This document shows positions 3,847 to 38,962 of a stretch of DNA of 44,428 nucleotides, in pieces. Source of the stretch: a virus. The notes beneath the pieces were generated by a model. That model ran no database searches. It had not been told where the DNA came from and worked only from the letters and a program-made list of their open reading frames with translations. Location of the stretch: IMG/VR virus record IMGVR_UViG_3300042923_000423, positions 1 to 44,428 of that record. One strand, written 5' to 3'. The position numbers were made by a program, and so were the translations under genes. Positions within the stretch are counted from its first letter, which is position 1. Every line of letters starts with the position of its first letter.

Positions 3847-4353
3847 ATGGCATTGACGGATAAGCAGCTCAATTTCATAAATGAGTACATCAAGGACATG
3901 AACGCGAGCGCGGCTTACCTTCGTGCCGGGTACAATTGTTCAGAAGAAGCCGCAAGACGGGCTGCTTCCCGTTTGTTGACAAATGTTGACGTTCAGGACG
4001 AAATAAAGCGGAGAACGGACAAAATTGCACAGGATTCGGACATTTCGGTGCAATGGGTGTTGACATCGTTCAAGGAAATAGCCGAAAGGTGCATGCAAGC
4101 CGTAGAGGTGACGGATAGAGAAGGTAACTCAACAGGGGAATACCGATTCGATTCCAGTGGAGCGAACAAAGCTTTGGAGAACATTGGAAAGTACCTTGGT
4201 ATGTTCACGGATAAAGTCAAAATGGATATGAGTGGAACGATGCATAGCACCATGCAGGACGTAACCGGGCTATCCCCGGAAGAACGGAGGGCGAGGATAG
4301 ATGAGCTTAACCGCCGCCGAGGAAATGGAACTCATAGCGCTGCTGGAGGTTGA
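3847..4353 (+). CDS. terS: terminase small subunit
   Basis: 168 residues. The N-terminal pattern MALTDKQLNFINEYIKDMNA, SAAYLRAGYN and AARRAASRLL is the terminase_2-type DNA-recognition domain of small terminases. The rest is a central oligomerisation helix region and a charged tail. It recognises the packaging site and recruits the large subunit. It overlaps the large subunit gene by 53 bases, a usual arrangement. The ribosome site is GGTGGTGAAAGG. Confidence 0.88.
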   Translation: MALTDKQLNFINEYIKDMNASAAYLRAGYNCSEEAARRAASRLLTNVDVQDEIKRRTDKIAQDSDISVQWVLTSFKEIAERCMQAVEVTDREGNSTGEYRFDSSGANKALENIGKYLGMFTDKVKMDMSGTMHSTMQDVTGLSPEERRARIDELNRRRGNGTHSAAGG

Positions 4354-5854
4354 GGAGAAGCACCAGGCTAAAACCGATTATTACAGTTATGTGCAATACA
4401 CGCACAAACTGATATACCAATATACGCGGCATGGCGAGTTCATCTGCAATGTGCTTAATGAGGCTGTGAAGCAACGTAAACGGATGAAGGCTGGAGAAAT
4501 ACCGGTACAAACTCAATATTTTATGTTCAGTGTACCGGCACAACATGGCAAGTCGATGCACATCACCGAGACATTTCCGAGTTTCTTTCTCGGTCACTTC
4601 CCGCAAGAGGGCGTAATCGAGATTAGCTATAACTCCGACTTTGCTTCCAAGTTCGGTGGGCGCAATAAGGACAAGGTGAAAGAGTATGGTATGGAACTGT
4701 TCGGGATCAATGTAGCAAGTGACAAGGCCAGCAGCGACGAATGGGATATCGTAGACAAGGATGGAAAGAAGACGCGCGGAGGCATGATTTCACGCGGTAT
4801 CATGTCGGGTATAACCGGTTCTTCGCTCGGCGATTGTATCATCATTGACGATCCGATCAAGAACGCAGAGGAAGCCAATTCTGAAACTATGCGGAAAAAG
4901 CAATGGGAAGAATGGCGAGATTCCATTCGCCGGCGTATTCACCCCGGTGCTATCGTGATATTGATCAACACGCGCTGGCATGAGGATGATCTATGGGGAA
5001 GGCTGCTTAATCCTGAGTACGCCAAGCCGTTCCCGTGGCAAGTATATAACCTACCGTTGGAGTGCGATCAGACGCATATCGACAAAGAAGGAAATCCACT
5101 GAACCGGAAGCTGGGAGAACCATTATGGCCAGAGCGATACGGGTATGAACACATCGCGGAGGCGAAAGGCTATCCCAGCTCATTCAATGCAATGGACCAA
5201 GGTAGGCCGACAGCTGAGGAAGGCAACATCATCAAAAAGCATTGGTGGCGTTGGGTTGACACCATACCGAAGCTCGAAACGAAGATTCTTTCCGTGGATG
5301 CGAGTTTCAAGGACACAGATGACAGCGCCAAGTGCTCCATTCAGGTATGGGGCAAGGAAGGCGGATATATTTATCAGGTGGACAACGATACGCGCCGTAT
5401 GGACTTTGTAACGGCCATACAAGCCATTCGCAATATGCTCCATAAACATCAGGACATTCGTGCAAAATACGTCGAGGATAAGGCTAATGGATCAGCAATC
5501 ATCAACGTCATGAATCGCAAGATTGGTGGATTCATACCGGTTAAAGCTGATGCAGGTACGGGGGGCAAGGAAGCCCGAGCCAAAGCGGTGACCCCTTGGA
5601 TCGAATCGGGCAATACGTTCCTACCGAGAGGCACAGAATGGGCAAATGATTTCGTTGAGGAATGCGCATCGTTCCCGAAAGGGACATATGCCGACCAAGT
5701 GGACGCGATGAGCCAAGGAATGCAGAAGATCATAGACATGATCGGCAGCGCAATGCCATGGAGTGCCACGCCTGAAGATCGACCCAACAAATCGGAACTG
5801 GATAGCGAATTTGACGACTTCGCCAATATAAGCGCAGGAAGCGCATGGAGTTGA
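4301..5854 (+). CDS. terL: terminase large subunit (ATPase-nuclease)
   Basis: 517 residues. It powers DNA packaging and cuts the concatemer. ATPase part: Walker A-like VPAQHGKSM (78-86), Walker B CIIIDD (179-184) and INTRWHEDD (222-230), typical of large terminases. Nuclease part (RNase H-like): D333 in SVDASFKD, E392 in YVEDKANG and D465/D468 in ADQVDAMSQG. The ATG at 4301 has GGAGGGCGAGG upstream. Length and motif order are complete. Confidence 0.93.
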   Translation: MSLTAAEEMELIALLEVEEKHQAKTDYYSYVQYTHKLIYQYTRHGEFICNVLNEAVKQRKRMKAGEIPVQTQYFMFSVPAQHGKSMHITETFPSFFLGHFPQEGVIEISYNSDFASKFGGRNKDKVKEYGMELFGINVASDKASSDEWDIVDKDGKKTRGGMISRGIMSGITGSSLGDCIIIDDPIKNAEEANSETMRKKQWEEWRDSIRRRIHPGAIVILINTRWHEDDLWGRLLNPEYAKPFPWQVYNLPLECDQTHIDKEGNPLNRKLGEPLWPERYGYEHIAEAKGYPSSFNAMDQGRPTAEEGNIIKKHWWRWVDTIPKLETKILSVDASFKDTDDSAKCSIQVWGKEGGYIYQVDNDTRRMDFVTAIQAIRNMLHKHQDIRAKYVEDKANGSAIINVMNRKIGGFIPVKADAGTGGKEARAKAVTPWIESGNTFLPRGTEWANDFVEECASFPKGTYADQVDAMSQGMQKIIDMIGSAMPWSATPEDRPNKSELDSEFDDFANISAGSAWS

Positions 5855-12338: not shown

Positions 12339-14075
12339 GTGTGGTCAACACCGGGCATTGCAAGTCAAGCAAAAGTAACTTATTTAGATTATAAAAAGAT
12401 AAAAGAATTCGATGGAGTCGGGTACTTCCTTGAAAACTACGTGGTTGATGGAGCATTCGTTACAAAAAATGTTTACAAGAGCGACTACATTGACATTACA
12501 GAAGCGCAAGTTAACCTTAAAGGTCAATTTACCGTTCGCGCAGCCACATCTTTACGAACGAGTGCGAAAAATGCCACTTACTACCTTGATTTTAAAGACG
12601 GTGACTTCACATTCGCAACGTCGCATCCATCCGGAACGGTTAACGTTGATTACCTCCAGATTGCGACGGTTACCACAGATTCGAACGGGACAGTATCAAC
12701 AATAACGGATAATGTTGGAGACCGCGGGGGGTTTAGACTCAAGCCAGGGTATGAGTTCCCAGAAATTGCTGAACTTCAGGCAGATAATGCGTCACGGGCA
12801 ATTAATGTTATGTATCCACCGAATGGATTGACGGCATTAGTAGCCGATGATTCAACAGACAATGCAACGGCTATCCAAGCAATGATTGATTACCTCGTAA
12901 CGCTTAAAGGTGGAAAACTCTTCTTTCCGGTGGGTAATTTTAAGTTTGGAACTACATTAACCTGGCCCAAGTCGTGGCCGATTGAACTCGAAGGCGCTGG
13001 CATCGACGCCACAGTCCTCCATTACTCAGGAACGGATGATGCATTCAATATTGTCGGCATTTCGGGAACGATGGTCGTCAAAAGTGGCATCACAAATATG
13101 CGTATTACCGGGAATGCCAGTGCATTGAATGGGATTGACTTGCAATATGCATATTCATTCTATATGCGAAATGTATCGATCGATACATTTACGAATGGAA
13201 TACGAACGCAAAATAGTTGGAAAATATTATTTGATTTCGTGACGGTTACTCAGTGTACAGCACAGGGGATTATACTTTCTGACGATTCCAATAATGTGAC
13301 ATTGATTGGTTGTGAGTTTTTTAATGTCGGCAACGCCGGGGTATTTGTCAATGGCGGAAGGTCGGTTAACGTAATAAGCTGCACATTAGAAAGCAACAAG
13401 TATGGAGCATATGTTACTAGCGATGCAAATGGTACATCGCACAGCATCGAGTTCTACGATTGCTACATCGAAGGGAATACCACAAATGACATTATTGTGA
13501 CGAAAGCAGATGGCGTGGCTCCGACAGCGATAAATATAAGAGATTGTTATTTTGTATGCATGTCTGGAGGAGCATCACTATCAGTACGATTGGAGCACGC
13601 TATTTCTGTGACTGTCGATGGTTGTTATTTTAGCGATGGGACGTCTTCGTATTTACATTCCCTGTACAACTCTGACGGAGCAACCCTAACTAACATTAAG
13701 TTTGGGTTTAATCAAGATTCCAGCGATAACGGAGTATACCAAGGAACAGGTACATCGTATTACAACGAGGCTCGACAACATGTAAAAGCTTGGGGGAGAT
13801 TTACGGTAGCAGGTGGCGATATTGCCACGATTAATGCCTTTGGGGTGCAGAGTATCGCTTATATAGAAGCCGGGACCTACGAGGTTACGTTAAAAGAGGC
13901 AATGGTTGGAACCGACTCATGCATTTTAGTAACGGCGGAAAACAGAGCAAATTACAACTTAATGTTAGCGTCTGCAGGTCAGCCTACCTCGACAACTGTA
14001 TTCCGTATTTATACAGGTACATCGTCATCCACCCTAGCCGACGCCAGGACAGTTAGTTTTAACGTGACGAGTTAG
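12339..14075 (+). CDS. tailspike / parallel beta-helix receptor-binding protein
   Basis: 578 residues. The head-binding N-terminal part (about 1-150) is followed by a pectate-lyase-like beta-helix: DNATAIQAMIDYLVTLKGGK LFFP is the classical entry motif, then repeated NVSIDTF, NVTLIGCEFFN, SVNVISCTLESN and NIRDCYF rungs to about 470, and a C-terminal beta domain. Such spikes bind and often cleave host surface polysaccharide. GTG at 12339 has GGGAGG 8 bases upstream; an upstream GTG at 12330 overlaps that site. AT-rich wording compared with neighbours suggests exchange. Confidence 0.8.
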   Translation: MWSTPGIASQAKVTYLDYKKIKEFDGVGYFLENYVVDGAFVTKNVYKSDYIDITEAQVNLKGQFTVRAATSLRTSAKNATYYLDFKDGDFTFATSHPSGTVNVDYLQIATVTTDSNGTVSTITDNVGDRGGFRLKPGYEFPEIAELQADNASRAINVMYPPNGLTALVADDSTDNATAIQAMIDYLVTLKGGKLFFPVGNFKFGTTLTWPKSWPIELEGAGIDATVLHYSGTDDAFNIVGISGTMVVKSGITNMRITGNASALNGIDLQYAYSFYMRNVSIDTFTNGIRTQNSWKILFDFVTVTQCTAQGIILSDDSNNVTLIGCEFFNVGNAGVFVNGGRSVNVISCTLESNKYGAYVTSDANGTSHSIEFYDCYIEGNTTNDIIVTKADGVAPTAINIRDCYFVCMSGGASLSVRLEHAISVTVDGCYFSDGTSSYLHSLYNSDGATLTNIKFGFNQDSSDNGVYQGTGTSYYNEARQHVKAWGRFTVAGGDIATINAFGVQSIAYIEAGTYEVTLKEAMVGTDSCILVTAENRANYNLMLASAGQPTSTTVFRIYTGTSSSTLADARTVSFNVTS

Positions 14076-14093
14076 CCGATAAGGAGGCGCTTT

Positions 14094-14363
14094 ATGGCAG
14101 TTTCGATAAACTATAGCAAGGAGATTCACGGTAAGCCCATCACCTTTGAGAACTGTTATGTAAAGGTCGTAAGTGCTTTTACCACGAAAGAATATTGTGT
14201 TGCACACGTCATTGTTTATATTGATTCGCAAAAATCAGACGCGGTAAGCGAATTGCGGTATCAATTTCCTCCAAATATGAATGATGGATCGGCAAACAAT
14301 ATTAAGCAAGCCTATCTGCACATAAAAACACTGCCCGAATTCGAAGGGGCGATTGATTGCTAA
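14094..14363 (+). CDS. small protein after the tailspike, unknown
   Basis: 89 residues, mixed alpha/beta, with no known motif. Ribosome site AAGGAGG. It could be a tailspike chaperone or fibre accessory by position only. Confidence 0.5.
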   Translation: MAVSINYSKEIHGKPITFENCYVKVVSAFTTKEYCVAHVIVYIDSQKSDAVSELRYQFPPNMNDGSANNIKQAYLHIKTLPEFEGAIDC

Positions 14364-14408
14364 TAGACCATACTGCAAGTAATGACGTCGTAAACGAATG
14401 AGGGAATC

Positions 14409-14546
14409 ATGCTTACTTTATACCATATGATCGCCTATGGGTATCACTCGCTCATGAGGCGATTTCATAAACGTAAGGGAAAATGGCAAACAGCGGGTTT
14501 TGAGCACCACCATCAACAAATGAAGCATCACCGTAGTTATTTCTAA
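14409..14546 (+). CDS. histidine-rich microprotein
   Basis: 45 residues with nine His, including EHHHQQMKHH. GAGGG lies 4 bases before the ATG, which is close. The N-terminus MLTLYHMIAYGYHSLM is hydrophobic. The gene lies in a 200-base gap between two structural genes and has no known family. Confidence 0.4.
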   Translation: MLTLYHMIAYGYHSLMRRFHKRKGKWQTAGFEHHHQQMKHHRSYF

Positions 14547-14562
14547 GTTATGAGGTGATAGA

Positions 14563-15117
14563 GTGGCCTTAACTCTTCAACAGATCATGGATGAAGCCGA
14601 CGAGATTGTACCAAACGAATACGGAACACCGATGAAAACGTCCTGGTTGAACGACATTAATCAGGATTTTTTTAATGTCGTGAAAATACCGAAGATTGCA
14701 AAGTTTACGACGACAACCTCGGCTACCTACACACTTTCAAGCGACGTTAGAGAGAAGAATATCGATCTCGTAAACGTGGGTTTGCTTCGATATAAGAGTT
14801 TCGCACGTGATGATGTTCCACCCTTGCACAACGGCTACTATTTCGATGACAGTACGTATGTAATAACCTTATCCCCTCCACCTTATATGGCGGGTCTAGA
14901 ATCGATTGTACGCTTTCGTAGGAGGGCAACAAGTACATTCTTATCATCAAACCTAGCCGCGTCTCCTGACGCACCAGAGGAGTACCATTGGACGTATGTC
15001 CCGGCTCTGTGCGAATACATCTGCTTGGCGATGGACGATCCCAAGGCGGCTAGCTTCAACGCACAGAAAACGGCCGCTTGGAATAGCGCTGCAGCAGACT
15101 ATCGGGGTGGGCCATGA
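14563..15117 (+). CDS. head-tail adaptor-like protein 2
   Basis: 184 residues. YTLSSDVREKNIDLVNVGLL, YYFDDSTYVITLSPPPYMAG, RFRRRATSTF and YVPALCEYICLAMDDPKAAS follow the adaptor pattern of P22 gp4 and T7 gp11 relatives. GTG start with GAGGTGAT upstream. It overlaps the gp10-like gene by four bases, matching the gp4-gp10 order of P22. I take this as the true tail adaptor, with the 11791 product its relative. Confidence 0.6.
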   Translation: MALTLQQIMDEADEIVPNEYGTPMKTSWLNDINQDFFNVVKIPKIAKFTTTTSATYTLSSDVREKNIDLVNVGLLRYKSFARDDVPPLHNGYYFDDSTYVITLSPPPYMAGLESIVRFRRRATSTFLSSNLAASPDAPEEYHWTYVPALCEYICLAMDDPKAASFNAQKTAAWNSAAADYRGGP

Positions 15118-16532
15118 AGCCTTTGATTCAGCGTGAGCCGGTCAAATATCAATCGGTTACCGGTATGATGGAACCCACTGTGATTCGCGAGTTTCGAGGG
15201 GTAAATACCTTCGACCCCTTTTCGATCGCTGATGGGTTCTTTACCGATATGTCCAACATGACCACGGACGATTATCCGGCAGTATCTGTAAGGCCGGGGT
15301 ATTCGGTTATTGGCACTACAGGAACGAAAGTTCTCGGCCTTGGCAGCTACAAGGACCAGAAGATCGTTGCTGTCTTTAATGACGGTTCGATGAAAAGTTG
15401 GGACGGTTCGACCTGGACGACATTGAAAACCGGACTTAGCACTAGCGCTATGTTTAGTTTCGCGGCTTTCGAGGGGAATCTGACAGGCGTAAATCTGATT
15501 GGGGCCAATGGGGTAGATGGGTTGCATAGATATGACGGTTCCACGGTGCAAACGTTCGGTGACGCTCCAGCGGATATTAACTACATCACGAGTTTTTCCA
15601 ATAGGCTGTGGGGTGGATCCGGTAAGGAATTACGGGCCAGCTCGCTCGACAAGCCTGATAAATGGAATGAGTTCGATATCAATACCTACGGCGACGAAGC
15701 CAGCTACGCGAAGGATATAGAGAGTACGCGTGGCGAAAATATCAACTTCCTCTCCGGTGAGTTGACCAAACTTGTCATCGGCATGCCAAATAGCCGGAAA
15801 GAGTTGTACGGGAATTTGCCCTCTGACTTCAACGATCGGCTTATCTCTGATAACTCCGGTTTCGCTAACAACAATAGCGCAGTAACAAAAGACGGCGTTA
15901 TACGGTCCATGCACAATACGGGGATATACGAATACGTGAGCGGTGGAATGAGTCCGAATAACTCGTTCTCCGAAATCGTAGAAAGGTACACCCAAACGAT
16001 AACGTCGAACGCTGCAGCCGGGTTCGATGGTGTTAAGCAGTACTTCTCAACGGATTACGGCGATATGCTCGTATACGATCCTCGTTCCGGCGTTCAAGCA
16101 TGGAGTGTATGGAATGATATCCAGGCAACGTGCTTCCTGAAATTCCAGAACGATCTATACATCGGAGATAATCTCGGCCGGGTGCTGAAACTCGGGGGAA
16201 CTTCAGACAATGGCACGGCAATCAACTGGTACGCCATCACGAAGCCATTCACGAACGGCTCGATCGCCCAGAAGCAACGATGGATCAAGTTATGGACCGT
16301 ATGGGAACTGGCAGTAGGTACGACCCTGAACGTATACCTTTCGAACACCGTTGATGGTAACGATTGGGAACTGGTCCATACCGTAACAGGCGCAGGATTG
16401 GGCATTCAGCGAGTCATTGTCCCGATCCAGAAATACGCCCTCGTCAATACCATCCGGGTGAAATTCGAGGGTACAGGATGGGCAAGGATGCATGAACATT
16501 CGCGGCAAGTGAGACAACTGCCGTTGTACTAG
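15114..16532 (+). CDS. gp10-like tail hub / packaged DNA stabilisation protein
   Basis: 472 residues, the length of P22 gp10. It is a repeated beta structure: FRGVNTFDPFSIADGFFTD, MTTDDYPAVSVRPGYS, then propeller-like blades (KVLGLGSYKDQKIVAVFNDG, ISFSNRLWGG-type, WYAITKPFTNGSIAQKQRW). This family closes the portal channel and holds the tailspikes. The position after the adaptor agrees. Confidence 0.72.
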   Translation: MKPLIQREPVKYQSVTGMMEPTVIREFRGVNTFDPFSIADGFFTDMSNMTTDDYPAVSVRPGYSVIGTTGTKVLGLGSYKDQKIVAVFNDGSMKSWDGSTWTTLKTGLSTSAMFSFAAFEGNLTGVNLIGANGVDGLHRYDGSTVQTFGDAPADINYITSFSNRLWGGSGKELRASSLDKPDKWNEFDINTYGDEASYAKDIESTRGENINFLSGELTKLVIGMPNSRKELYGNLPSDFNDRLISDNSGFANNNSAVTKDGVIRSMHNTGIYEYVSGGMSPNNSFSEIVERYTQTITSNAAAGFDGVKQYFSTDYGDMLVYDPRSGVQAWSVWNDIQATCFLKFQNDLYIGDNLGRVLKLGGTSDNGTAINWYAITKPFTNGSIAQKQRWIKLWTVWELAVGTTLNVYLSNTVDGNDWELVHTVTGAGLGIQRVIVPIQKYALVNTIRVKFEGTGWARMHEHSRQVRQLPLY

Positions 16533-27128: not shown

Positions 27129-27661
27129 CGGCGCTAGGAACGGCCATATTCGCGCTATTGAAGCAACGCAAGGTAAAGGCGCAGCTACGGAAGCTCATTC
27201 CGTGGCTCTTTGCTGATGACTCCGAGATCCGGCAGTACGTCCAGAATCAGCAGCGTATCGAATCCAAAATAGACGAGCTGCTCGAGAAAGAGGGGATCGT
27301 ATGGCAAAGTGCAAGCTCGAATGGTACAACCGGCAAAGTATCGACAAGAAGAATTGGTTTTACGTCTTTCTCGGCGGTCAGATCAGTTGTCCGTGGTGTC
27401 GTCAGGTGCATCATTTACCTTATATCGAAAGGAAGGAAGCACATGAATAAGCTAAAGAGTCGGAAATTTTGGATGAGCGTCGTATCGGCTATATTGGTAC
27501 TGGCTAATGACGGTTTGGACCTCGGACTTGATACCAATACCGTGTTAGCTTTTGCAGGGATAGTGATGTCATTTATCTTCGGGGAGGCTTACGTAGACGG
27601 AAAGAAGGTGAAAAACGATGCAGACTCGGGGTATACAAATACCTTCCAATCTAATAGATGA
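27071..27661 (+). CDS. membrane protein in frame with the holin (possible dual-start gene)
   Basis: 196 codons are open without a stop. Residues 1-77 look like a real small lysis protein: a hydrophobic N-terminal segment (SLTALGTAIFALL), then a coiled coil (QYVQNQQRIESKIDELLEKE). Residues about 78-124 look like out-of-frame sequence because the zinc-knuckle gene at 27301 is read there in another frame. Codons 125-196 are the holin, which has its own ATG and ribosome site at 27443. Either a stop codon was lost between two genes, or a long and a short form are both made. GGAGG precedes the ATG. Confidence 0.5.
   Translation: MYDWIIDSLNAVWRHGWSLTALGTAIFALLKQRKVKAQLRKLIPWLFADDSEIRQYVQNQQRIESKIDELLEKEGIVWQSASSNGTTGKVSTRRIGFTSFSAVRSVVRGVVRCIIYLISKGRKHMNKLKSRKFWMSVVSAILVLANDGLDLGLDTNTVLAFAGIVMSFIFGEAYVDGKKVKNDADSGYTNTFQSNR
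27301..27450 (+). CDS. zinc-knuckle microprotein nested in the lysis region
   Basis: 49 residues, WYNRQSIDKKNWFYVFLGGQ followed by ISCPWCRQVHHLPYIE, with CPWC and a following HH. The sequence looks more natural than the overlapping frame, so I believe it is coding. The upstream ribosome site is GAGGGG. It overlaps the holin start by 8 bases. Confidence 0.5.
   Translation: MAKCKLEWYNRQSIDKKNWFYVFLGGQISCPWCRQVHHLPYIERKEAHE
27443..27661 (+). CDS. holin
   Basis: 72 residues with a basic start (MNKLKSRKFW) and two membrane segments (SVVSAILVLA and TVLAFAGIVMSFIFG) joined by an acidic loop, then a hydrophilic tail. This is the layout of small two-span Gram-positive phage holins. GGAAGG lies 7 bases before the ATG. 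It overlaps the amidase gene by 44 bases, as lysis cassettes do. It releases the amidase to the wall at lysis time. Confidence 0.72.
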   Translation: MNKLKSRKFWMSVVSAILVLANDGLDLGLDTNTVLAFAGIVMSFIFGEAYVDGKKVKNDADSGYTNTFQSNR

Positions 27662-28397
27662 GTTGAAGATTCCGCAGATCATCGACATTACGGACGACCT
27701 CCCTAAGCGTGGCAAAACAGGCTGGGACGCTCTTAACAAGCCAAGAGATATAAACGCATTAACAGACATAGCGTGGCATCATACGGCTGAATTTGAGGAC
27801 GACGACATCTCACCTGAGACTCATGCTAATAATCACATCCGGGCTGGAGAAGGCGGATTTCCGTATCATTTTTACATCAAGAAGGGTACGATTTACCAAG
27901 GGAATGATATCCTGACATTCACTTATGGGATAAAATCGAATAACTATCAAACGGTTCATTGTTCAGTAGAGGGATGTTATGCACCGGATAAAGGTAGGCC
28001 TGCCGATGAGTTGTCAGATGAAAATCTAAGGGCGATGATTGGCCTAGAATTGACATTACGGCAAGTGTTGCCAGCGTATAAAAAGACGAACGGTCACAAC
28101 TACTACGATAGAACACTCTGTCCCGGCTACAGCATGACCAAGTTCCGGGAAAGCATCCTCGAAATTGAAAAGAAAATCGAGTGGAAGAATACGAGCCAAT
28201 ACCGGTCCGAACTGGCTTTTCGAATCGCCAATTCTATCCTATGGACACGGAACACCTCGATGGGAATTGACCAATTCGGCAAAACCCATAACGAGGATGG
28301 AACGCCCACGGTTAAGGAAGAACATAAAGCATGGGCTGTAGATCGTCTATTGCTGCTCGAGCCGAAAGTCCGCGAATTAGGATTTCTATTTGATTAA
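27618..28397 (+). CDS. endolysin, N-acetylmuramoyl-L-alanine amidase
   Basis: 259 residues. Amidase_2/PGRP fold: ALTDIAWHHTAEF with H54/H55, FPYHFYIKKGTIYQG, YQTVHCSVEG and GHNYYDRTLCPGY with H160 and C168, the expected zinc ligands. It cuts the amide bond between the glycan and stem peptide. The C-terminal about 60 residues (QYRSELAFRIANSILWTRNT...) may bind the wall but match no family I can name. No signal peptide, so export through the holin. The ribosome site is AAGAAGGTG. Confidence 0.88.
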   Translation: MQTRGIQIPSNLIDELKIPQIIDITDDLPKRGKTGWDALNKPRDINALTDIAWHHTAEFEDDDISPETHANNHIRAGEGGFPYHFYIKKGTIYQGNDILTFTYGIKSNNYQTVHCSVEGCYAPDKGRPADELSDENLRAMIGLELTLRQVLPAYKKTNGHNYYDRTLCPGYSMTKFRESILEIEKKIEWKNTSQYRSELAFRIANSILWTRNTSMGIDQFGKTHNEDGTPTVKEEHKAWAVDRLLLLEPKVRELGFLFD

Positions 28398-28401
28398 CCC
28401 T

Positions 28402-28431
28402 AACCCCACTTTAACCGAGTGGGGTTTTTTT
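28402..28431 (+). terminator. strong Rho-independent terminator after lysis genes
   Basis: AACCCCACT-TTAACCG-AGTGGGGTT is a perfect 9-bp stem followed by a run of T. Confidence 0.9.
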
Positions 28432-28432
28432 G

Positions 28433-28455
28433 TGCTATCATAAGAACATACGTTC
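28433..28455 (+). promoter_or_regulatory. extended -10 promoter with LexA-type box (YolD gene)
   Basis: TGCTATCAT (28433-28441) is directly followed by GAACATACGTTC (28444-28455), a perfect GAAC-N4-GTTC palindrome of the Gram-positive LexA type. It covers the likely start site, so the YolD gene should rise after DNA damage. Confidence 0.7.
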
Positions 28456-28471
28456 TATTTGGAGGTGCTAC

Positions 28472-28786
28472 ATGGGGAAAAAACTCGAAGCAAACGGACT
28501 GTGGGAATCCTCCCGCATGATGCTGCCGGAACATGTTAAGACGATCATCCAACACAAGGAATGGTTTAAGGCGGATCCGCAAGAACGTCCCGTCCTAGAT
28601 GAACAGGAAATCGAGGACATGAGCCGGAAACTGTACGAGTCGAAGGAGGAGCAAACGGCCGTTACCGTGGAGAGATGGGAACGCGATCCGGCGCGGGGGA
28701 TCGTACAGTTGATCGATATGAGGAAACGAATCGTCGTGGTCGGTCAGGAAATCGTGAAGATTGATGATATAATTGGAGTGGAGTAA
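28472..28786 (+). CDS. YolD-like protein
   Basis: 104 residues. LWESSRMMLPEHVKTIIQHK (conserved YolD N-terminal W-S-RMMLPEH), then a beta-rich C-terminus (KRIVVVGQEIVKIDDIIGVE). YolD proteins are SOS-controlled partners of Y-family polymerase UvrX/YqjW; no such polymerase lies beside it here. The ATG has GGAGGTG upstream. A LexA-type box lies in the promoter. Confidence 0.8.
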   Translation: MGKKLEANGLWESSRMMLPEHVKTIIQHKEWFKADPQERPVLDEQEIEDMSRKLYESKEEQTAVTVERWERDPARGIVQLIDMRKRIVVVGQEIVKIDDIIGVE

Positions 28787-28861: not shown

Positions 28862-30334
28862 TTAAGAGTTAAACTCAAAATCCGAAACATACACTCGAAC
28901 ACGACGACCGGGGCCACCTTTGGCTTCGGTTTCTTTTGTATTGATCGTGATGGTTTCGAACAGATCGTTGATGAACATTTTCTTCGCGGTTTGGTCCTTA
29001 ATCTCACTAAATGAATCCTTGATACTTTTCAATTGGTCGATGATTTCGTCATACGATAGGGACTGCTTAGGTGTATCGATTTTTTTCAACTGCTCATTTA
29101 GACGTTTCTCAAGGTCGTCTTCTTCGGACATTCGCAGTTTCAGGTCTTGAATCGTAATCGCGTCGTTGGCAAAAGCGAACTGCCATTTCTTCTTGCGCTT
29201 TTCAATCTGCTCGAGATCCTTACGAATAATATCGGCTTGGGTATTTGTCTCACGAACCAACTTCATCGGCTCTTGCTTAAGGAGCGCGGCGTATTGCTCG
29301 ATGTTATAGTCTAAGGACTCGAAAAACGCTTCCTCGACGCTTTCTTCCGCGATTAGGGGCATATCACACATTCCTAAATTAAAGCGTCCAGAACACTTAT
29401 ACGCGCGTTTACGCCCTGTTAATACCTTTCGGCTTGTCCCGTGCATCGGTTTACTGCAACGTTCGCATACCAGGACGCCCGTAAAGGCGTAATCCGATGT
29501 CGCGGCCTTACCTTTTTGCGAACGCATCTCCATAAGCTTTTGCGCGCGGTCAAATGTTTCTTTATCGAGAATGGGCATATGGGTTCCTTGGACAGTGATT
29601 TCTTTGCCCGTCAATTTCCCTGTAGACTTCCGATTGTTCCATCTTATCTGTCCGATATAGACCGGGTTGGTCAGAATATAGTATACGGTGAAGTCATTCC
29701 ACATACCTTGTTTTGGATGCGGGTAAAGATGTGGGTTGCGATTGAAGGTCTTTGCAATCCATCGGATACTACGGTTTTGTAGATAAAATTCAAACATGCT
29801 TTTGACAAGTTCGGCTTCCTGCTCGTTTACGACAAGTTCTTTTTCAACGAGATCGTATCCAATGGGCGCAGCAGCTCCGTTCCGTTTCCCCTTCAAAGCA
29901 AGCTCATACATAGTAGAATGGACGTTCTCGGATATCTGCTCGAGTTCGCCCTGCGCGACGGATACTAAAATATTTGTTACCATTCGCCCGGATGCTGACG
30001 TCGTATCGATTTCCTCCGTCATACTCTTCAACTCGATGCGGTGATCGTTAAATAACTCATACAGATATATTTTGTCTTTCAATATACGAGTAAGCCGGTT
30101 TTGTCTCCAAAAGACGAGAAGATCGAATTTCTTTTCGGGGATATCCTTGATCATTCGCTGAATATCTTTCCGTTTCAGATTCTTGGCGGAATATCCTTCG
30201 TCTATATATTCATCGACCAGCGTGTGACCTTTCTCCAAAATCCATCGTAAACAAACTTCGCGTTGAGCTTCTATGCTATATCCTTCCCGGGCCTGTTCTT
30301 CTGTCGAAACGCGGATATATATAACGGCTCTCAT
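28862..30334 (-). CDS. large serine recombinase (phage integrase)
   Basis: 490 residues. Catalytic Ser10 in YIRVSTEEQ; resolvase domain about 1-140 with WRQNRLTRI; recombinase domain about 160-270 (GAAAPIGYDL, YYILTNPVYIGQIRWNNRKS); zinc ribbon with CERC and a later C-x6-C near 285-325; then a coiled coil (IRKDLEQIEKRKKKWQ) and C-terminal tail. It integrates the phage at attB. attP should be near its gene, but no site can be named because the host junctions are not in the window. The gene has an ATG start. Confidence 0.92.
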   Translation of the reverse strand: MRAVIYIRVSTEEQAREGYSIEAQREVCLRWILEKGHTLVDEYIDEGYSAKNLKRKDIQRMIKDIPEKKFDLLVFWRQNRLTRILKDKIYLYELFNDHRIELKSMTEEIDTTSASGRMVTNILVSVAQGELEQISENVHSTMYELALKGKRNGAAAPIGYDLVEKELVVNEQEAELVKSMFEFYLQNRSIRWIAKTFNRNPHLYPHPKQGMWNDFTVYYILTNPVYIGQIRWNNRKSTGKLTGKEITVQGTHMPILDKETFDRAQKLMEMRSQKGKAATSDYAFTGVLVCERCSKPMHGTSRKVLTGRKRAYKCSGRFNLGMCDMPLIAEESVEEAFFESLDYNIEQYAALLKQEPMKLVRETNTQADIIRKDLEQIEKRKKKWQFAFANDAITIQDLKLRMSEEDDLEKRLNEQLKKIDTPKQSLSYDEIIDQLKSIKDSFSEIKDQTAKKMFINDLFETITINTKETEAKGGPGRRVRVYVSDFEFNS

Positions 30335-30346
30335 GCGGTGTTCCTC

Positions 30347-30550
30347 CTAAAATAAAGTCGGTTGAATGGGGTAGACGTGTTGTTCATCGGGGTAATCCGA
30401 ATATCCGTTCGCCATAGCAACGTATCCCCATTCTATCGCGTTCCTGTTTGAGCTACAACCACATTTCGGACATGTGCCATACTTGCCAATGTCAAACCTC
30501 CATCGGTCTCTGTGCGTGGCGTAGCAGCAGTGTGAGCACCATAAGTACAT
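30347..30550 (-). CDS. zinc-ribbon protein upstream of the integrase
   Basis: 67 residues with CSHCC near 5-9 and CPKCGC near 27-32. Likely two-knuckle zinc ribbon. AAGGAAGG lies 8 bases before the ATG. Co-oriented with the integrase, 12 bases apart, so probably one operon. Function unknown; a role in recombination control is only a guess. Confidence 0.6.
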   Translation of the reverse strand: MYLWCSHCCYATHRDRWRFDIGKYGTCPKCGCSSNRNAIEWGYVAMANGYSDYPDEQHVYPIQPTLF

Positions 30551-30616
30551 GTTTTATACCTTCCTTGCGAATGTTATTAGTAGTTGATGCCGATACTACT
30601 CGCGAGGTGATAACAA

Positions 30617-30991
30617 ATGATGCCAGTAATGACGAGGGACGGTAAAGGGATCATGCTAGACTTTAGGCAGATTGTTTTCATCGAACGGCGAGCAAGGGAA
30701 CTTATATATCATACAAAGACTGACGAATACAGAGCCATTACATCGATTGAAAAGATGACGGAAGCCTTGGAGCCAATGGGGTTCAGTAGATTAGACCAAT
30801 CTAATGTTGTCAATCTGTCCAGCATTAAAAAGTATGACCTATCACGGAACGTTGTTGTCTTTGATCACGTTCAGGACAGTAAGAGTAAAGAAGTCTATGT
30901 ATCACGGGAAAACCGATCATCACTGTCTCAATATGTCCATGAGCACAGATCCGAAATTAGCGTAATATACCATAGAAACGGAAAAAAGTAA
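30617..30991 (+). CDS. LytTR-domain transcription regulator
   Basis: 124 residues, a stand-alone LytTR DNA-binding domain: DFRQIVFIERRARELIYHT, YRAITSIEKMTEALEPMGFS, RLDQSNVVNLSSIKKYD. It lacks a receiver domain. Divergent from the zinc-ribbon and integrase genes, so it may regulate lysogeny or a host quorum path. GCGAGGTGAT lies before the ATG. Confidence 0.75.
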   Translation: MMPVMTRDGKGIMLDFRQIVFIERRARELIYHTKTDEYRAITSIEKMTEALEPMGFSRLDQSNVVNLSSIKKYDLSRNVVVFDHVQDSKSKEVYVSRENRSSLSQYVHEHRSEISVIYHRNGKK

Positions 30992-31189
30992 ACAACAGAA
31001 TATACCGCGTATTCGGTAGTTGTTGGTAAGTCTTGGATGAGGCATAATGTAATTACGTCGAGGGCATGTCATATTTTGTGGGGGTACAAACCATAAGCAA
31101 ATTCTGACAAATGACATGGTACATATATCCTGAGTCGAAGGAATTGTCAGATAAACACTACTCAAACCTATCATAAAGTGTTATATTGA
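30992..31189 (+). other. gene-free stretch with inverted repeats before the riboswitch
   Basis: AACAAC-TACCG pairs with CGGTA-GTTGTT (30992-31026, with a bulge). CATGTCAT (31065-31072) and ATGACATG (31111-31118) form a perfect 8-bp inverted repeat, and CTGACAA (31104-31110) with TTGTCAG (31144-31150) forms another. These may be binding sites, for instance for the LytTR protein. An extended -10 element, TGTTATATT (31179-31187), lies at the end and would start the riboswitch RNA. Confidence 0.5.
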
Positions 31190-31290
31190 AAGCACTTACA
31201 TACTTGGCAAACCTGTTGAAAAGCAGGGACGCAAAGCTACGGGGCTAAGTCTTCTGATACGCTCGCCGGGTTGCCCGTTTGGTGGGAATA
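31190..31290 (+). ncRNA. cyclic-di-GMP-I (GEMM) riboswitch
   Basis: The conserved core is complete: TTGGCAAACC, a GAAAA-loop stem (CCTG/CAGG), GGGACGCAAAGC, then ACGGGGCTAAGT and GCTCGCCGGGTTGCC. ACTTGG pairs with CTAAGT as P1. The aptamer is preceded by an extended -10 promoter and followed at once by a terminator, so it controls transcription. No plus-strand gene follows within 440 bases; the next gene is on the minus strand. Confidence 0.85.
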
Positions 31291-31317
31291 TCCATCTCTA
31301 AAGGGTGGATTTTTTTG
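31290..31317 (+). terminator. terminator serving as riboswitch expression platform
   Basis: ATCCATC and GGTGGAT (one G-U) pair around TCTAAAG... and are followed by TTTTTT. Readthrough would run antisense to the XRE gene at 31395-31607. Confidence 0.75.
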
Positions 31318-31394
31318 TCTTATACGATGTATGATTGTGGTAGTACGAAACGTTGACCGGAGGGGCAGAGTAGAAACACTACTCTGTTAATGGC

Positions 31395-31607
31395 CTACTC
31401 CTCAATCCATACGTACAGATCGTCCATCGGCAGCCCTAAAGCGTTTGCGACCGTTTTTAACGTGTCGATGGACATCTTCCTTTTATTCTTCGAGTATACA
31501 TAATATTGCTGCTTTGACCATCCGAGAGATTCGTAAAACCTCACCGGATCGATCTTCCGATCACGAAGGATTTGAGAGAGTAGGCACTTATCGGCACGGA
31601 TAGCCAT
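31395..31607 (-). CDS. small XRE-like regulator
   Basis: 70 residues. RADKCLLSQILRDRKIDPV and YESLGWSKQQYYVYSKNKRK with SIDTLKTVANALGLPMDDLY form a compact XRE helix-turn-helix. ATG at 31607 with GAGGGG upstream; a longer frame reaches 31667 without a ribosome site. A LexA-type sequence lies 35 bases upstream. It is opposite to the riboswitch readthrough. Confidence 0.7.
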   Translation of the reverse strand: MAIRADKCLLSQILRDRKIDPVRFYESLGWSKQQYYVYSKNKRKMSIDTLKTVANALGLPMDDLYVWIEE

Positions 31608-31641
31608 GAAGTACCCCTCAAAAAAATTTTTCCCTAAAACA

Positions 31642-31706
31642 GAACATACGTTTCCTTTTATTGTCAAGCATTGTCTGAAGTGTAAACCTAATAAGAACTA
31701 GTGTTC
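31642..31706. promoter_or_regulatory. two LexA-type sequences and a -35-like element
   Basis: GAACATACGTTT (31642-31653) differs by one base from the perfect box of the YolD promoter. GAACTAGTGTTC (31695-31706) also has GAAC-N4-GTTC. On the minus strand TTGACA (31667-31662) is a consensus -35 upstream of the first box. Both the minus XRE gene and the plus gene at 31760 could be SOS-controlled. Confidence 0.5.
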
Positions 31707-31759
31707 TTGTGTAATGCGTAATATACTTTATTCAACATGACGAATGGGACGGTGATTCT

Positions 31760-31960
31760 ATGGATTCATATGAGTTAACAAGGGAGTTTTTGATTCAAAT
31801 TGGTGTTGACCCGGATAAACTTGCCATGAAAGTTAGAGCAGCAGAAATTAAGACCACAACCCACTGTATTGCATACCGAAGGTTTCGTAAGTTAATGGAG
31901 TGTTCTAATTGCCCATCTTGCCCGCTCGCTCATACCGAACGTAATCTCGAAACTTCTTAA
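31760..31960 (+). CDS. small Cys-rich protein
   Basis: 66 residues ending with CSNCPSCPLA, a CxxCxxC cluster that may bind metal. GGGACGGTGAT lies before the ATG. Its 3' end overlaps the converging repressor gene by 56 bases. No known family. Confidence 0.5.
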   Translation: MDSYELTREFLIQIGVDPDKLAMKVRAAEIKTTTHCIAYRRFRKLMECSNCPSCPLAHTERNLETS

Positions 31961-32276
31961 TTTGATCTTCTGTCAATGGTATCCCATCAATGGTAATAGT
32001 GTTATTTTTAATAAATTCTTCATCTGTTAGCTCGAGCTTATCGACAAAGCTTCGCGCTTCCTCGGACATAGTTAGATTTGGATCGTCTGTACGTCCAACA
32101 AGGTAGTCAATTGACACGTTGTAAATATCGGCCATTTTCTGCAAAAGTTCATTATCTGGTTGGACATGTTCATTTTCATAATGGGAATAACGTGCTCTTG
32201 CGATATTCAACATATTTGCAATTTCTTGTTGAGTCCTTTTTCCTCTGAGTTTTTTTAACCTCTTCCCCAGCAACAC
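31905..32276 (-). CDS. main lysogeny repressor, XRE family (cI-like)
   Basis: 123 residues. LKKLRGKRTQQEIANMLNIA and RARYSHYENEHVQPDNELLQ form the HTH, then a small dimerising tail (NLTMSEEARSFVDKLELTD). It lacks a self-cleavage domain. GTG start with GGAGG upstream. It diverges from the Cro-like gene across four of the five operators, so it represses both promoters and keeps the prophage silent. Confidence 0.82.
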   Translation of the reverse strand: MLLGKRLKKLRGKRTQQEIANMLNIARARYSHYENEHVQPDNELLQKMADIYNVSIDYLVGRTDDPNLTMSEEARSFVDKLELTDEEFIKNNTITIDGIPLTEDQIKKFRDYVRYERAGKMGN

Positions 32277-32311
32277 AGCAGCCTCCTTTCATTAACGTGC
32301 TACACCATATC

Positions 32312-32340
32312 ATTATAGATAAATAATGTATCATCTAAAA
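32312..32340 (-). promoter_or_regulatory. promoter of the main repressor
   Basis: On the minus strand TTTTAG, 17 bases, then TATAAT (32317-32312). Operator 1 fills the spacer, giving autoregulation. Confidence 0.55.
32318..32332. promoter_or_regulatory. operator 1 (GATAAATAATGTATC)
   Basis: Imperfect palindrome with GATAA/TATC arms, in the repressor promoter spacer. Confidence 0.7.
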
Positions 32341-32345
32341 GAAAT

Positions 32346-32360
32346 GATAAAAGATTTATC
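32346..32360. promoter_or_regulatory. operator 2 (GATAAAAGATTTATC)
   Basis: Palindrome GATAAA-AGA-TTTATC between the two divergent promoters. Confidence 0.75.
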
Positions 32361-32368
32361 AAAAACTA

Positions 32369-32397
32369 TTGACGATAAATAATTTATCGTTTATGAT
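32369..32397 (+). promoter_or_regulatory. promoter of the Cro-like gene
   Basis: TTGACG, 17 bases, then TATGAT, a strong sigma-A-type promoter. Operator 3 lies inside its spacer, so repressor binding blocks RNA polymerase directly. Confidence 0.8.
32374..32388. promoter_or_regulatory. operator 3 (GATAAATAATTTATC)
   Basis: Perfect GATAAAT-A-ATTTATC palindrome, the best operator, in the core of the early promoter. Confidence 0.8.
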
Positions 32398-32406
32398 GTG
32401 ATTGTT

Positions 32407-32421
32407 GATAAGAAATTTATC
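32407..32421. promoter_or_regulatory. operator 4 (GATAAGAAATTTATC)
   Basis: Lies just after the early start site, before the Cro-like gene. It shares 19 bases, TGATAAGAAATTTATCAAA, with operator 5. Confidence 0.75.
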
Positions 32422-32438
32422 AAACTGGAGGTGATAAG

Positions 32439-32678
32439 ATGAAGCGTGATCGCTTGATACTTGAACGTAATAAAAGGAAATTGACACGCGATGAACTTGC
32501 GAAGCACCTAGGAATATCCGAGGTATATGTTCGTAAGATCGAGTCGGGAAGTGTCAAGCCGGGCCGAGACACAATGATAAAATTCGAAGAGTTCTACAGT
32601 CTCGGTATGAAAACTTTGTTTCCAGATATTTTTTTGACCAAAAATGATAAGAAATTTATCAAAACAGGAACGGAGTGA
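32439..32678 (+). CDS. Cro-like XRE regulator
   Basis: 79 residues. RDELAKHLGISEVYVRKIES is the HTH; the C-terminus is short. GGAGGTGAT lies before the ATG. As the first gene rightward it should repress the repressor gene and favour lytic growth. Operator 5 lies in its last codons. Confidence 0.78.
   Translation: MKRDRLILERNKRKLTRDELAKHLGISEVYVRKIESGSVKPGRDTMIKFEEFYSLGMKTLFPDIFLTKNDKKFIKTGTE
32646..32660. promoter_or_regulatory. operator 5 inside the Cro-like gene
   Basis: An exact copy of operator 4 within the coding sequence (KKFIK), 25 bases before the antirepressor ATG. It could allow DNA looping or block transcription into the antirepressor. Confidence 0.65.
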
Positions 32679-32684
32679 TAAAAA

Positions 32685-33491
32685 ATGCGACAACTTGTTT
32701 TCATCGAAAATAATCGTCCATTAACGGATACTTTGATTGTTTCGGCGAAATTTGGAAAAAGGCATGATTCTGTTATGAGAGATGTTAGAGATATCCTTGA
32801 AAAACTCAACACAGACATTCCTGATGACCCAGTGAGAACAAACATTAATCGAAGTTTTGCATTCCACAATTTTGTGGAGACCCCCTATGTGAGCTTACAG
32901 AACAACCAAACATATATGAAGTTCAACTTAACTGAAGAAGCTTTCAACTTGGTTGTAATGGGCTTTACTGGATTTGACGCGATGACCTATAAAGTTGCTT
33001 TCATAAATGAATTCATTCGAATGCGAGAAGAAATAAAGTTCGGACTTACCAAGCCTTCGTATATGATCGACGATCCGATTGGTCGTGCTGAGCGCTGGAT
33101 TCAAGAAGAGCGACAAAGACAAGAACTTGAAGAACTGAATAAAAAGCGGGAAGAACAGTTAACCTTGCAAGCTCCAAAAGTTGCCCTATATGAAACCGCT
33201 ATGAATGCTAAAAACAATTTTACGATGGAGCGTGTTTCGAAAACACTTGGATATGGTCGAAATAAACTGTTTGAATTCCTAAGAGAACAAAAAGTACTTC
33301 GATTCAATAACTTGCCATACCAAGAGTACATTGACCGAAAATATTTTGATGTCCGACAGTATAGTATTACTCACAATACGACTGGAATCGAAAATAAAAA
33401 TCAAACGCTTGTAACTCCTAAAGGGGTTGCATACATTCATAAATTGTTAATCGAAAACGGCAAGATTCCAGGTGATCAAAAACATGCATAA
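32685..33491 (+). CDS. Rha/KilAC-type antirepressor
   Basis: 268 residues. The N-terminal Rha domain (about 5-110): RHDSVMRDVRDILEKL, NLTEEAFNLVVMGFTGFDAM and YKVAFINEFIRM. The C-terminal KilAC/ANT domain (about 160-265): GYGRNKLFEFLREQKVL, YFDVRQYSI and VTPKGVAYIHKLL. Such two-domain proteins relieve repression or switch lysogeny control. Contains the 21-bp repeat (32864-32884) that also lies before the CRISPR-like repeat gene. ATG preceded by GGAGTGAT. Confidence 0.82.
   Translation: MRQLVFIENNRPLTDTLIVSAKFGKRHDSVMRDVRDILEKLNTDIPDDPVRTNINRSFAFHNFVETPYVSLQNNQTYMKFNLTEEAFNLVVMGFTGFDAMTYKVAFINEFIRMREEIKFGLTKPSYMIDDPIGRAERWIQEERQRQELEELNKKREEQLTLQAPKVALYETAMNAKNNFTMERVSKTLGYGRNKLFEFLREQKVLRFNNLPYQEYIDRKYFDVRQYSITHNTTGIENKNQTLVTPKGVAYIHKLLIENGKIPGDQKHA
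32864..32884 (+). repeat. 21-bp repeat, copy in the rha gene
   Basis: Encodes HNFVETP; identical to 17996-18016. Confidence 0.6.
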
Positions 33492-38317: not shown

Positions 38318-38962
38318 TTGAATGCTCTAGATTTATATTGCTGTGGTGGCGGTGTGTCAGTAGGTTTGCATCAAGCTGGATTTAAAGTAACTGGCGTTGA
38401 CATAGAAGTACAAAAAAACTATCCATTCGACTTTATACAAGCTAATGTACTGGATTTATCAATAGATTTCCTTAAAACATTCGACTTCATATGGGCATCT
38501 CCACCATGCCAGAAGTACACAATGGCAGGAACTCAATGGAGGCTGGAAGGTAAGGAATACCCGGACTTAATCGAGCCCACCAGAGAAATGCTCCAACTAA
38601 GCGGAAAGCCATACGTCATTGAAAATGTACCTGGATCCCCATTAATCAATCCTGTGCTATTGTGTGGAACAATGTTCGATTTGAGGACTTATAGGCACAG
38701 GTTGTTCGAAACCAACTTTCCAGTAATCCAACCGATACACATGGGTCATGTACATAAAAATGCCAAGATGGGACGTCCGCCAAAGGACGATGAGTTCTTG
38801 CAAATAGTCGGTCATTTCAGTGGTGTGCCATTAGCTCGGGAAATAATGGGTCTACCAAATTTGAATCAATATGAGCTTGCCCAAGCAATTCCACCGGCTT
38901 ATTCAAAATACCTTGCTGAGCAGTATTTAGAAAATAAACACCTGTTTGAGAGAGGTGCTTGA
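38318..38962 (+). CDS. DNA (cytosine-5) methyltransferase
   Basis: 214 residues, short for the family. Motif I LYCCGGGVSVGLHQAG with VTGVDIE, motif IV WASPPCQ with catalytic Cys64, motif VI ENV (IENVPG near 101) and YRHRLFETN, then a C-terminal helix. The target domain seems small. It may protect phage DNA from host restriction. TTG start with GAAGGAGG upstream. Beside a PAPS-reductase-like gene, so a modification cluster is possible. Confidence 0.8.
   Translation: MNALDLYCCGGGVSVGLHQAGFKVTGVDIEVQKNYPFDFIQANVLDLSIDFLKTFDFIWASPPCQKYTMAGTQWRLEGKEYPDLIEPTREMLQLSGKPYVIENVPGSPLINPVLLCGTMFDLRTYRHRLFETNFPVIQPIHMGHVHKNAKMGRPPKDDEFLQIVGHFSGVPLAREIMGLPNLNQYELAQAIPPAYSKYLAEQYLENKHLFERGA

Follow-up and report, generated by a model that had tools for sequence, protein, structure and literature searches.

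What does a c-di-GMP riboswitch control in a temperate phage when no gene stands directly behind it? Temperate phages are known to read the state of their host through DNA damage, peptides and small-molecule signals, and how they sense its physiological state is an active question. The window analyzed here, 44,428 bases long, comprises an entire IMG/VR virus record and is identified as a phage by its terminase small and large subunits, portal, head protease, amidase, serine integrase, repressor and antirepressor. The large terminase is ~50% identical to that of Bacillus phage Page and its kin, and the integrase finds its best genome match (41%) in Brevibacillus migulae. A C-5 cytosine methylase match at 38318-38962 is confined to the N-terminal third of its Pfam profile and marks a short or truncated gene. 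The best hypothesis, held tentatively and at close to an even chance, is that a functional c-di-GMP-I riboswitch lies directly behind a phage promoter facing an operon of an XRE regulator, a 67-aa protein and the integrase, on which it would act by antisense control.

The Aptamer and Its Terminator

The aptamer (31196-31278, plus strand) belongs to the c-di-GMP-I (GEMM-I) family, Rfam RF01051. A search of the whole window aligns it to all 87 model positions (1-87) with 72.4 bits (E 2.1e-12), against a gathering cut-off of 35 bits. This score rules out a false or degenerate aptamer, and the family search that the original prediction had proposed as its own check thus gives anything but a poor match. 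Across all 44,428 bases, RF01051 is the sole Rfam match to exceed its threshold, and a permissive Rfam search of 30300-32700 finds no RNA besides c-di-GMP-I. A purpose-built covariance model scores the aptamer, which is one of that model's training sequences, at 75.5 bits. The core motif GGCAAA ... GACGCAAAG is present, with GGCAAACC at 31206-31213 and GACGCAAAG at 31228-31236 in the RF01051 alignment. At the presumed ligand-recognition position, the aptamer has a guanine and not an adenine, which places it with the c-di-GMP rather than the cGAMP type; its predicted ligand is c-di-GMP. Searched in annotated phages, the riboswitch DNA gives weak matches only. The aptamer is followed by an intrinsic terminator (31290-31317, plus strand), consisting of a hairpin with an 8-bp stem (31290-31310) and then T7 (U7 in the RNA), and the complete core and terminator that had been claimed are both present.

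In the minimum free energy structure (ViennaRNA), the predicted P1 5' strand CUUAC (31195-31199, plus strand) pairs with GUGGG (31282-31286), forming a modest helix of 5 bp that includes two G-U pairs. Folding of the growing transcript predicts an antiterminator hairpin (31281-31296, plus strand), in which GGUGG (31281-31285) pairs with CCAUC (31292-31296), and no two of P1, antiterminator and terminator can form together. This arrangement suggests an OFF switch, in which c-di-GMP would favor termination, and such a polarity fits most c-di-GMP-I riboswitches of C. difficile (PMC3649979). The polarity is only a guess, because the antiterminator is no stronger than those of shuffled sequences (P ~0.2), P1 is weak, and the terminator is predicted in the full-length RNA with or without the aptamer.

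The Promoter Is Shared With Riboswitch-Free Relatives

A promoter block spans 31142-31199 on the plus strand and comprises a AATTGTCAGA box, an extended -10 element TGTTATATT (31179-31187) and a CACTTAC start region. A good -35 box is absent from this predicted promoter. Deduced from the extended -10 element, transcription is predicted to start at ~31194, and the riboswitch begins at this very site. On the minus strand, 31188-31201 reads TGTAAGTGCTTTCA, which overlaps the predicted start site, is similar in the related contig L009 and presumably resembles a CcpA cre site.

Several viral contigs (L003, L005 and L008, which are one record, and L006, L007 and L009) share with the window the 67-aa gene beside the integrase, and the protein is 73-83% identical in four related phages. 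In genome contigs and in Brevibacillales, searches with this protein return nothing useful, and a class-wide search yields weak matches in other contexts. The order XRE, cargo, 67-aa gene, integrase is also found in L003, L006 and L009, where the cargo differs and encodes membrane or copper-amine-oxidase-N-domain proteins. The window's terminase has no match in the four module relatives, which therefore possess different structural modules or are fragments. Neither the loci of the relatives nor their whole records contain a c-di-GMP-I riboswitch. The promoter block aligns in the riboswitch-free L003, L006 and L009, in the form AATTGTCWGA, TGKTATATT (the extended -10 element) and a leader resembling RAARCACTTAC, and TGKTATATT faces XRE within 250 nt in 4/4 members of the window's clade vs 2/93 other XRE loci. 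Because it is kept where the riboswitch is missing, this plus-strand promoter belongs to the module of the phage; the aptamer and terminator were either inserted behind it or lost from the relatives. The riboswitch is a single copy, and no relative carrying it at the same site was found.

Where the related phages carry their cargo genes, the window has instead a gene for a 124-aa LytTR DNA-binding-domain protein (30617-30991, plus strand; Pfam LytTR 2.2e-13), which lacks a receiver domain and lies upstream of the riboswitch. No relative of this protein was found in viral contigs at the sensitivity used. In a Paenibacillaceae prophage (L160), the same cargo slot, between the serine integrase and the XRE/cargo genes, is occupied by a match to Rfam BsrG, a type I antitoxin family, at 3982-4217.

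An Apparent SOS-Induced Operon Opposite the Riboswitch

The XRE gene on which the original prediction relied is real: it encodes a 70-aa XRE/HTH_26 regulator (31395-31607, minus strand; Pfam HTH_26 1.4e-8) that is 77% identical in L003. Just past its 3' end lies an inverted repeat, CAGAGTAG-N5-CTACTCTG (31366-31386), with an equivalent in L003. Upstream of the gene there is a LexA/SOS-type box, GAACATACGTTT (31642-31653). Four LexA-type matches occur in the window vs 0.58 expected, two of them being both strands of one palindrome. Boxes of this type precede XRE in all three relatives (L003, L006 and L009) and in 19/93 other XRE loci, vs 3/93 for an equally long control stretch, and by its box the XRE gene ranks as a member of the SOS regulon. 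A perfect palindromic LexA box, GAACATACGTTC (28444-28455), lies at the start of a YolD-like gene (28430-28786, plus strand) that follows the amidase gene (27618-28397, plus strand). This makes the YolD-like gene another SOS target of the phage; its listed start codon is probably too early.

On the same strand as XRE are found the gene of the 67-aa CxxC-type cysteine-rich protein (30347-30550, minus strand), which adjoins the integrase and is conserved there, and that of the serine integrase itself (28862-30334, minus strand; Pfam Resolvase/Recombinase/Zn ribbon; PHROG integrase 7.9e-125). No strong terminator was found between XRE and the integrase, and the three genes form an apparent SOS-induced operon headed by XRE. 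On the other side of XRE are located the main phage repressor (31905-32258, minus strand; Pfam HTH_3 2e-12; PHROG transcriptional regulator), a Cro-like gene (32439-32678, plus strand) and the antirepressor (from 32685, plus strand).

The riboswitch is transcribed towards XRE from the opposite strand, with the end of the aptamer 117 nt and the terminator 78 nt from the XRE stop codon. Both distances lie within the 500 nt, counted to the 3' end of a gene on the other strand, by which antisense-acting riboswitches are recognized (PMC9943018). Orientation and coordinates bear out the proposal that a readthrough transcript would run antisense to XRE before arriving at the gene at 31760, and the main repressor does lie beside that gene. 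The claim that no gene lies downstream holds for ~440 nt past the terminator, in that no plus-strand ORF in 31318-31759 is preceded by a credible ribosome site; it fails beyond that point, where a sense gene of 66 aa exists (31760-31960, plus strand; convergent with the repressor). The likeliest target appears to be the XRE-integrase operon and not the switch of the main repressor, because the promoter is kept in riboswitch-free relatives, XRE carries an SOS box and XRE heads the apparent operon.

A Possible Mechanism

From the aptamer, the terminator, their orientation, the promoter of the relatives, the LexA box and the gene order, all of which are read from the sequence, we infer the transcription, the OFF polarity and the effects on XRE, integrase and lysogeny that antisense control would involve. 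RNA polymerase would start at ~31194 and transcribe the aptamer. With c-di-GMP bound, P1 would hold GUGGG, the terminator at 31290-31317 would form, and an RNA of ~120 nt that stops short of XRE would be released. With little c-di-GMP, readthrough would produce RNA antisense to the entire SOS-inducible XRE gene, and possibly continue into the 66-aa gene. Such antisense transcription would lower XRE expression, and integrase expression could be lowered through XRE or by polymerase collision. Against this mechanism count the single copy of the riboswitch and its absence from the 80 Paenibacillaceae XRE loci described below, the antiterminator that does not exceed chance, the missing -35 box and the sense ORF behind the riboswitch of prophage L153.

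A fuller claim, which is conceivable but on balance doubtful, is that the phage has wired host c-di-GMP into the SOS-inducible XRE-integrase operon by a riboswitch-gated antisense transcript, so that the biofilm or motility state of the host sets how strongly DNA damage can switch on the excision genes. If true, this would constitute a direct RNA link from biofilm signaling to prophage behavior, exerted through antisense transcription across an integrase operon under SOS control, and the biofilm or motility state of the host could influence whether the phage stays put. To our knowledge, riboswitch-gated antisense control in prophages is so far known only at C. difficile toxin-antitoxin loci, and would thereby be extended to a lysogeny module.

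c-di-GMP-I Riboswitches in Other Phages

A pattern scan for c-di-GMP-I-like cores returns 107 stretches in viral contigs. Many belong to C. difficile prophages, with a T-run at ~+65, and several of these that were inspected have a 58-aa sense ORF near +140. Two other inspected matches (L063 and L101) sit inside a gene and probably arose by chance, and L002 was discarded as a phage case, its riboswitch match being followed by putative host signaling genes.

Two further phages have such an element in this kind of lysogeny module. In IMGVR_UViG_3300033752_000152 (L060), a c-di-GMP-I riboswitch with a terminator (13761-13842, minus strand; 69.7 bits) has as its neighbors a divergent serine integrase (13946-15367 of the contig) and a convergent cargo gene of the copper-amine-oxidase-N-domain type; no same-strand gene follows it for ~1.1 kb. 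In a prophage of genome G123 (L153), a riboswitch of 76.1 bits (5560-5712, minus strand) is flanked by the phage repressor and XRE, both of which are encoded on the other strand, and is the direct leader of a 38-aa ORF, MTECSAKISEIMETSECLSNLNPDQLRELIISLIIIDD (beginning MTECSAKISEIM), with an AGGAGG ribosome site. c-di-GMP-I riboswitches thus occur in such lysogeny modules in three unlike phages, and rarely.

Sense Control, Relict or Free RNA

The most serious rival, unlikely yet deserving real weight, is an ordinary sense riboswitch with a long leader, whose target is the 66-aa gene and whose overlap with XRE on the other strand is a by-product or of secondary importance. The element could then be a leader of ~560 nt that crosses XRE, a length with a parallel in C. 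difficile flgB, where a 496-nt leader lies behind a 160-nt terminated riboswitch RNA (PMC3649979). The position also recurs: the ORF led by the L153 riboswitch, between repressor and XRE, is the positional equivalent of the gene at 31760, and in L060 a small gene next to the repressor lies downstream of the riboswitch in the same orientation. However, no homology is detectable between the small ORF of L153 and that of the window. The DNA upstream of the 31760 gene is separately conserved in L006 and L009 and probably holds that gene's own promoter. An enrichment of small divergent ORFs next to XRE was not upheld either (27/92 vs 23/92 in the control). A single transcript serving both as leader of the small gene and as antisense RNA to XRE would satisfy the sense and the antisense reading alike. 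Small divergent ORFs beside XRE or the repressor in L003, L203, L205, L236 and L060 share an F(I/L)xxA(T/S)xEQ(L/I)-like pattern and are possibly a small-protein family of lysogeny modules, the alignment having been built from these same sequences.

It is also unlikely that the element is without present function, being either a recently acquired host riboswitch that landed behind the promoter or a relict whose gene has been lost. Its absence from the closest relatives is consistent with such an origin, as is the count of 0/80 Paenibacillaceae XRE loci with a c-di-GMP-I riboswitch, and a source is at hand in related hosts, where the class is plentiful (11 in the Brevibacillus migulae genome). 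Against this speaks that neither aptamer nor terminator has decayed, that the predicted transcription start site is where the riboswitch begins, and that P1 makes use of the conserved leader sequence. Least probable by far is a stand-alone RNA of ~120 nt, acting as a decoy or a trans-acting small RNA with no need of readthrough: the terminator is strong and folding favors the terminated form whether the aptamer is included or left out, but titration of c-di-GMP by a single aptamer RNA is unlikely.

Comparison With Known Systems

Antisense control, the preferred reading, has its closest proven precedent in C. difficile, where the prophage riboswitches Cdi1_4 and Cdi1_5 precede the antisense antitoxin RNAs RCd11 and RCd12 (phiCD630-1 and -2) and readthrough depends on c-di-GMP (PMC7699646). 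As in that system, the window has a phage-borne c-di-GMP-I riboswitch with predicted premature termination and no protein gene directly downstream, and its readthrough RNA, here predicted from the sequence, would be antisense to a prophage gene (PMC7699646). The targets differ: for Cdi1_4 and Cdi1_5 it is a type I toxin encoded in the lysis region, where there is a second, stronger antisense promoter, whereas the element in the window faces an XRE regulator before an integrase. Unlike the RCd11/RCd12 loci, the window locus revealed no toxin-like ORF, and a riboswitch-linked type I toxin of the RCd11 type is rejected by the lack of any hydrophobic small minus-strand ORF with a ribosome site in 30950-31760. 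It counts against antisense control in the window that silencing in C. difficile does not require the antisense RNA under riboswitch control (PMC7699646). Riboswitches with no detected downstream coding sequence account for 5/12 of class I in that species (PMC6200980).

The sense riboswitch of C. difficile flgB likewise combines aptamer, terminator and a long leader and is of the OFF type, which in the window is a prediction (PMC3649979). By contrast with flgB, the leader in the window would have to traverse an entire gene on the other strand ahead of any sense ORF. In the library of papers searched, no publication was found on a c-di-GMP riboswitch acting on a phage lysogeny or integrase operon.

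Antisense action has been predicted for 152 c-di-GMP riboswitches in a genome survey, the strongest tendency of any class, and the predicted c-di-GMP-I cases include one against an XRE gene in Paenibacillus FSL P4-0081 (PMC9943018). Other antisense-acting riboswitches are those of the C. acetobutylicum SAM/ubiG operon and of Listeria cobalamin/pocR (PMC9943018). Like them, the element in the window lies at the 3' end of a gene, within 500 nt, and is transcribed against it; the genes described for those systems are bacterial metabolic or biofilm genes, whereas in the window the gene belongs to a phage lysogeny module (PMC9943018). By its sequence, the arrangement is a variant of the antisense-acting riboswitches, with a putative function in that module.
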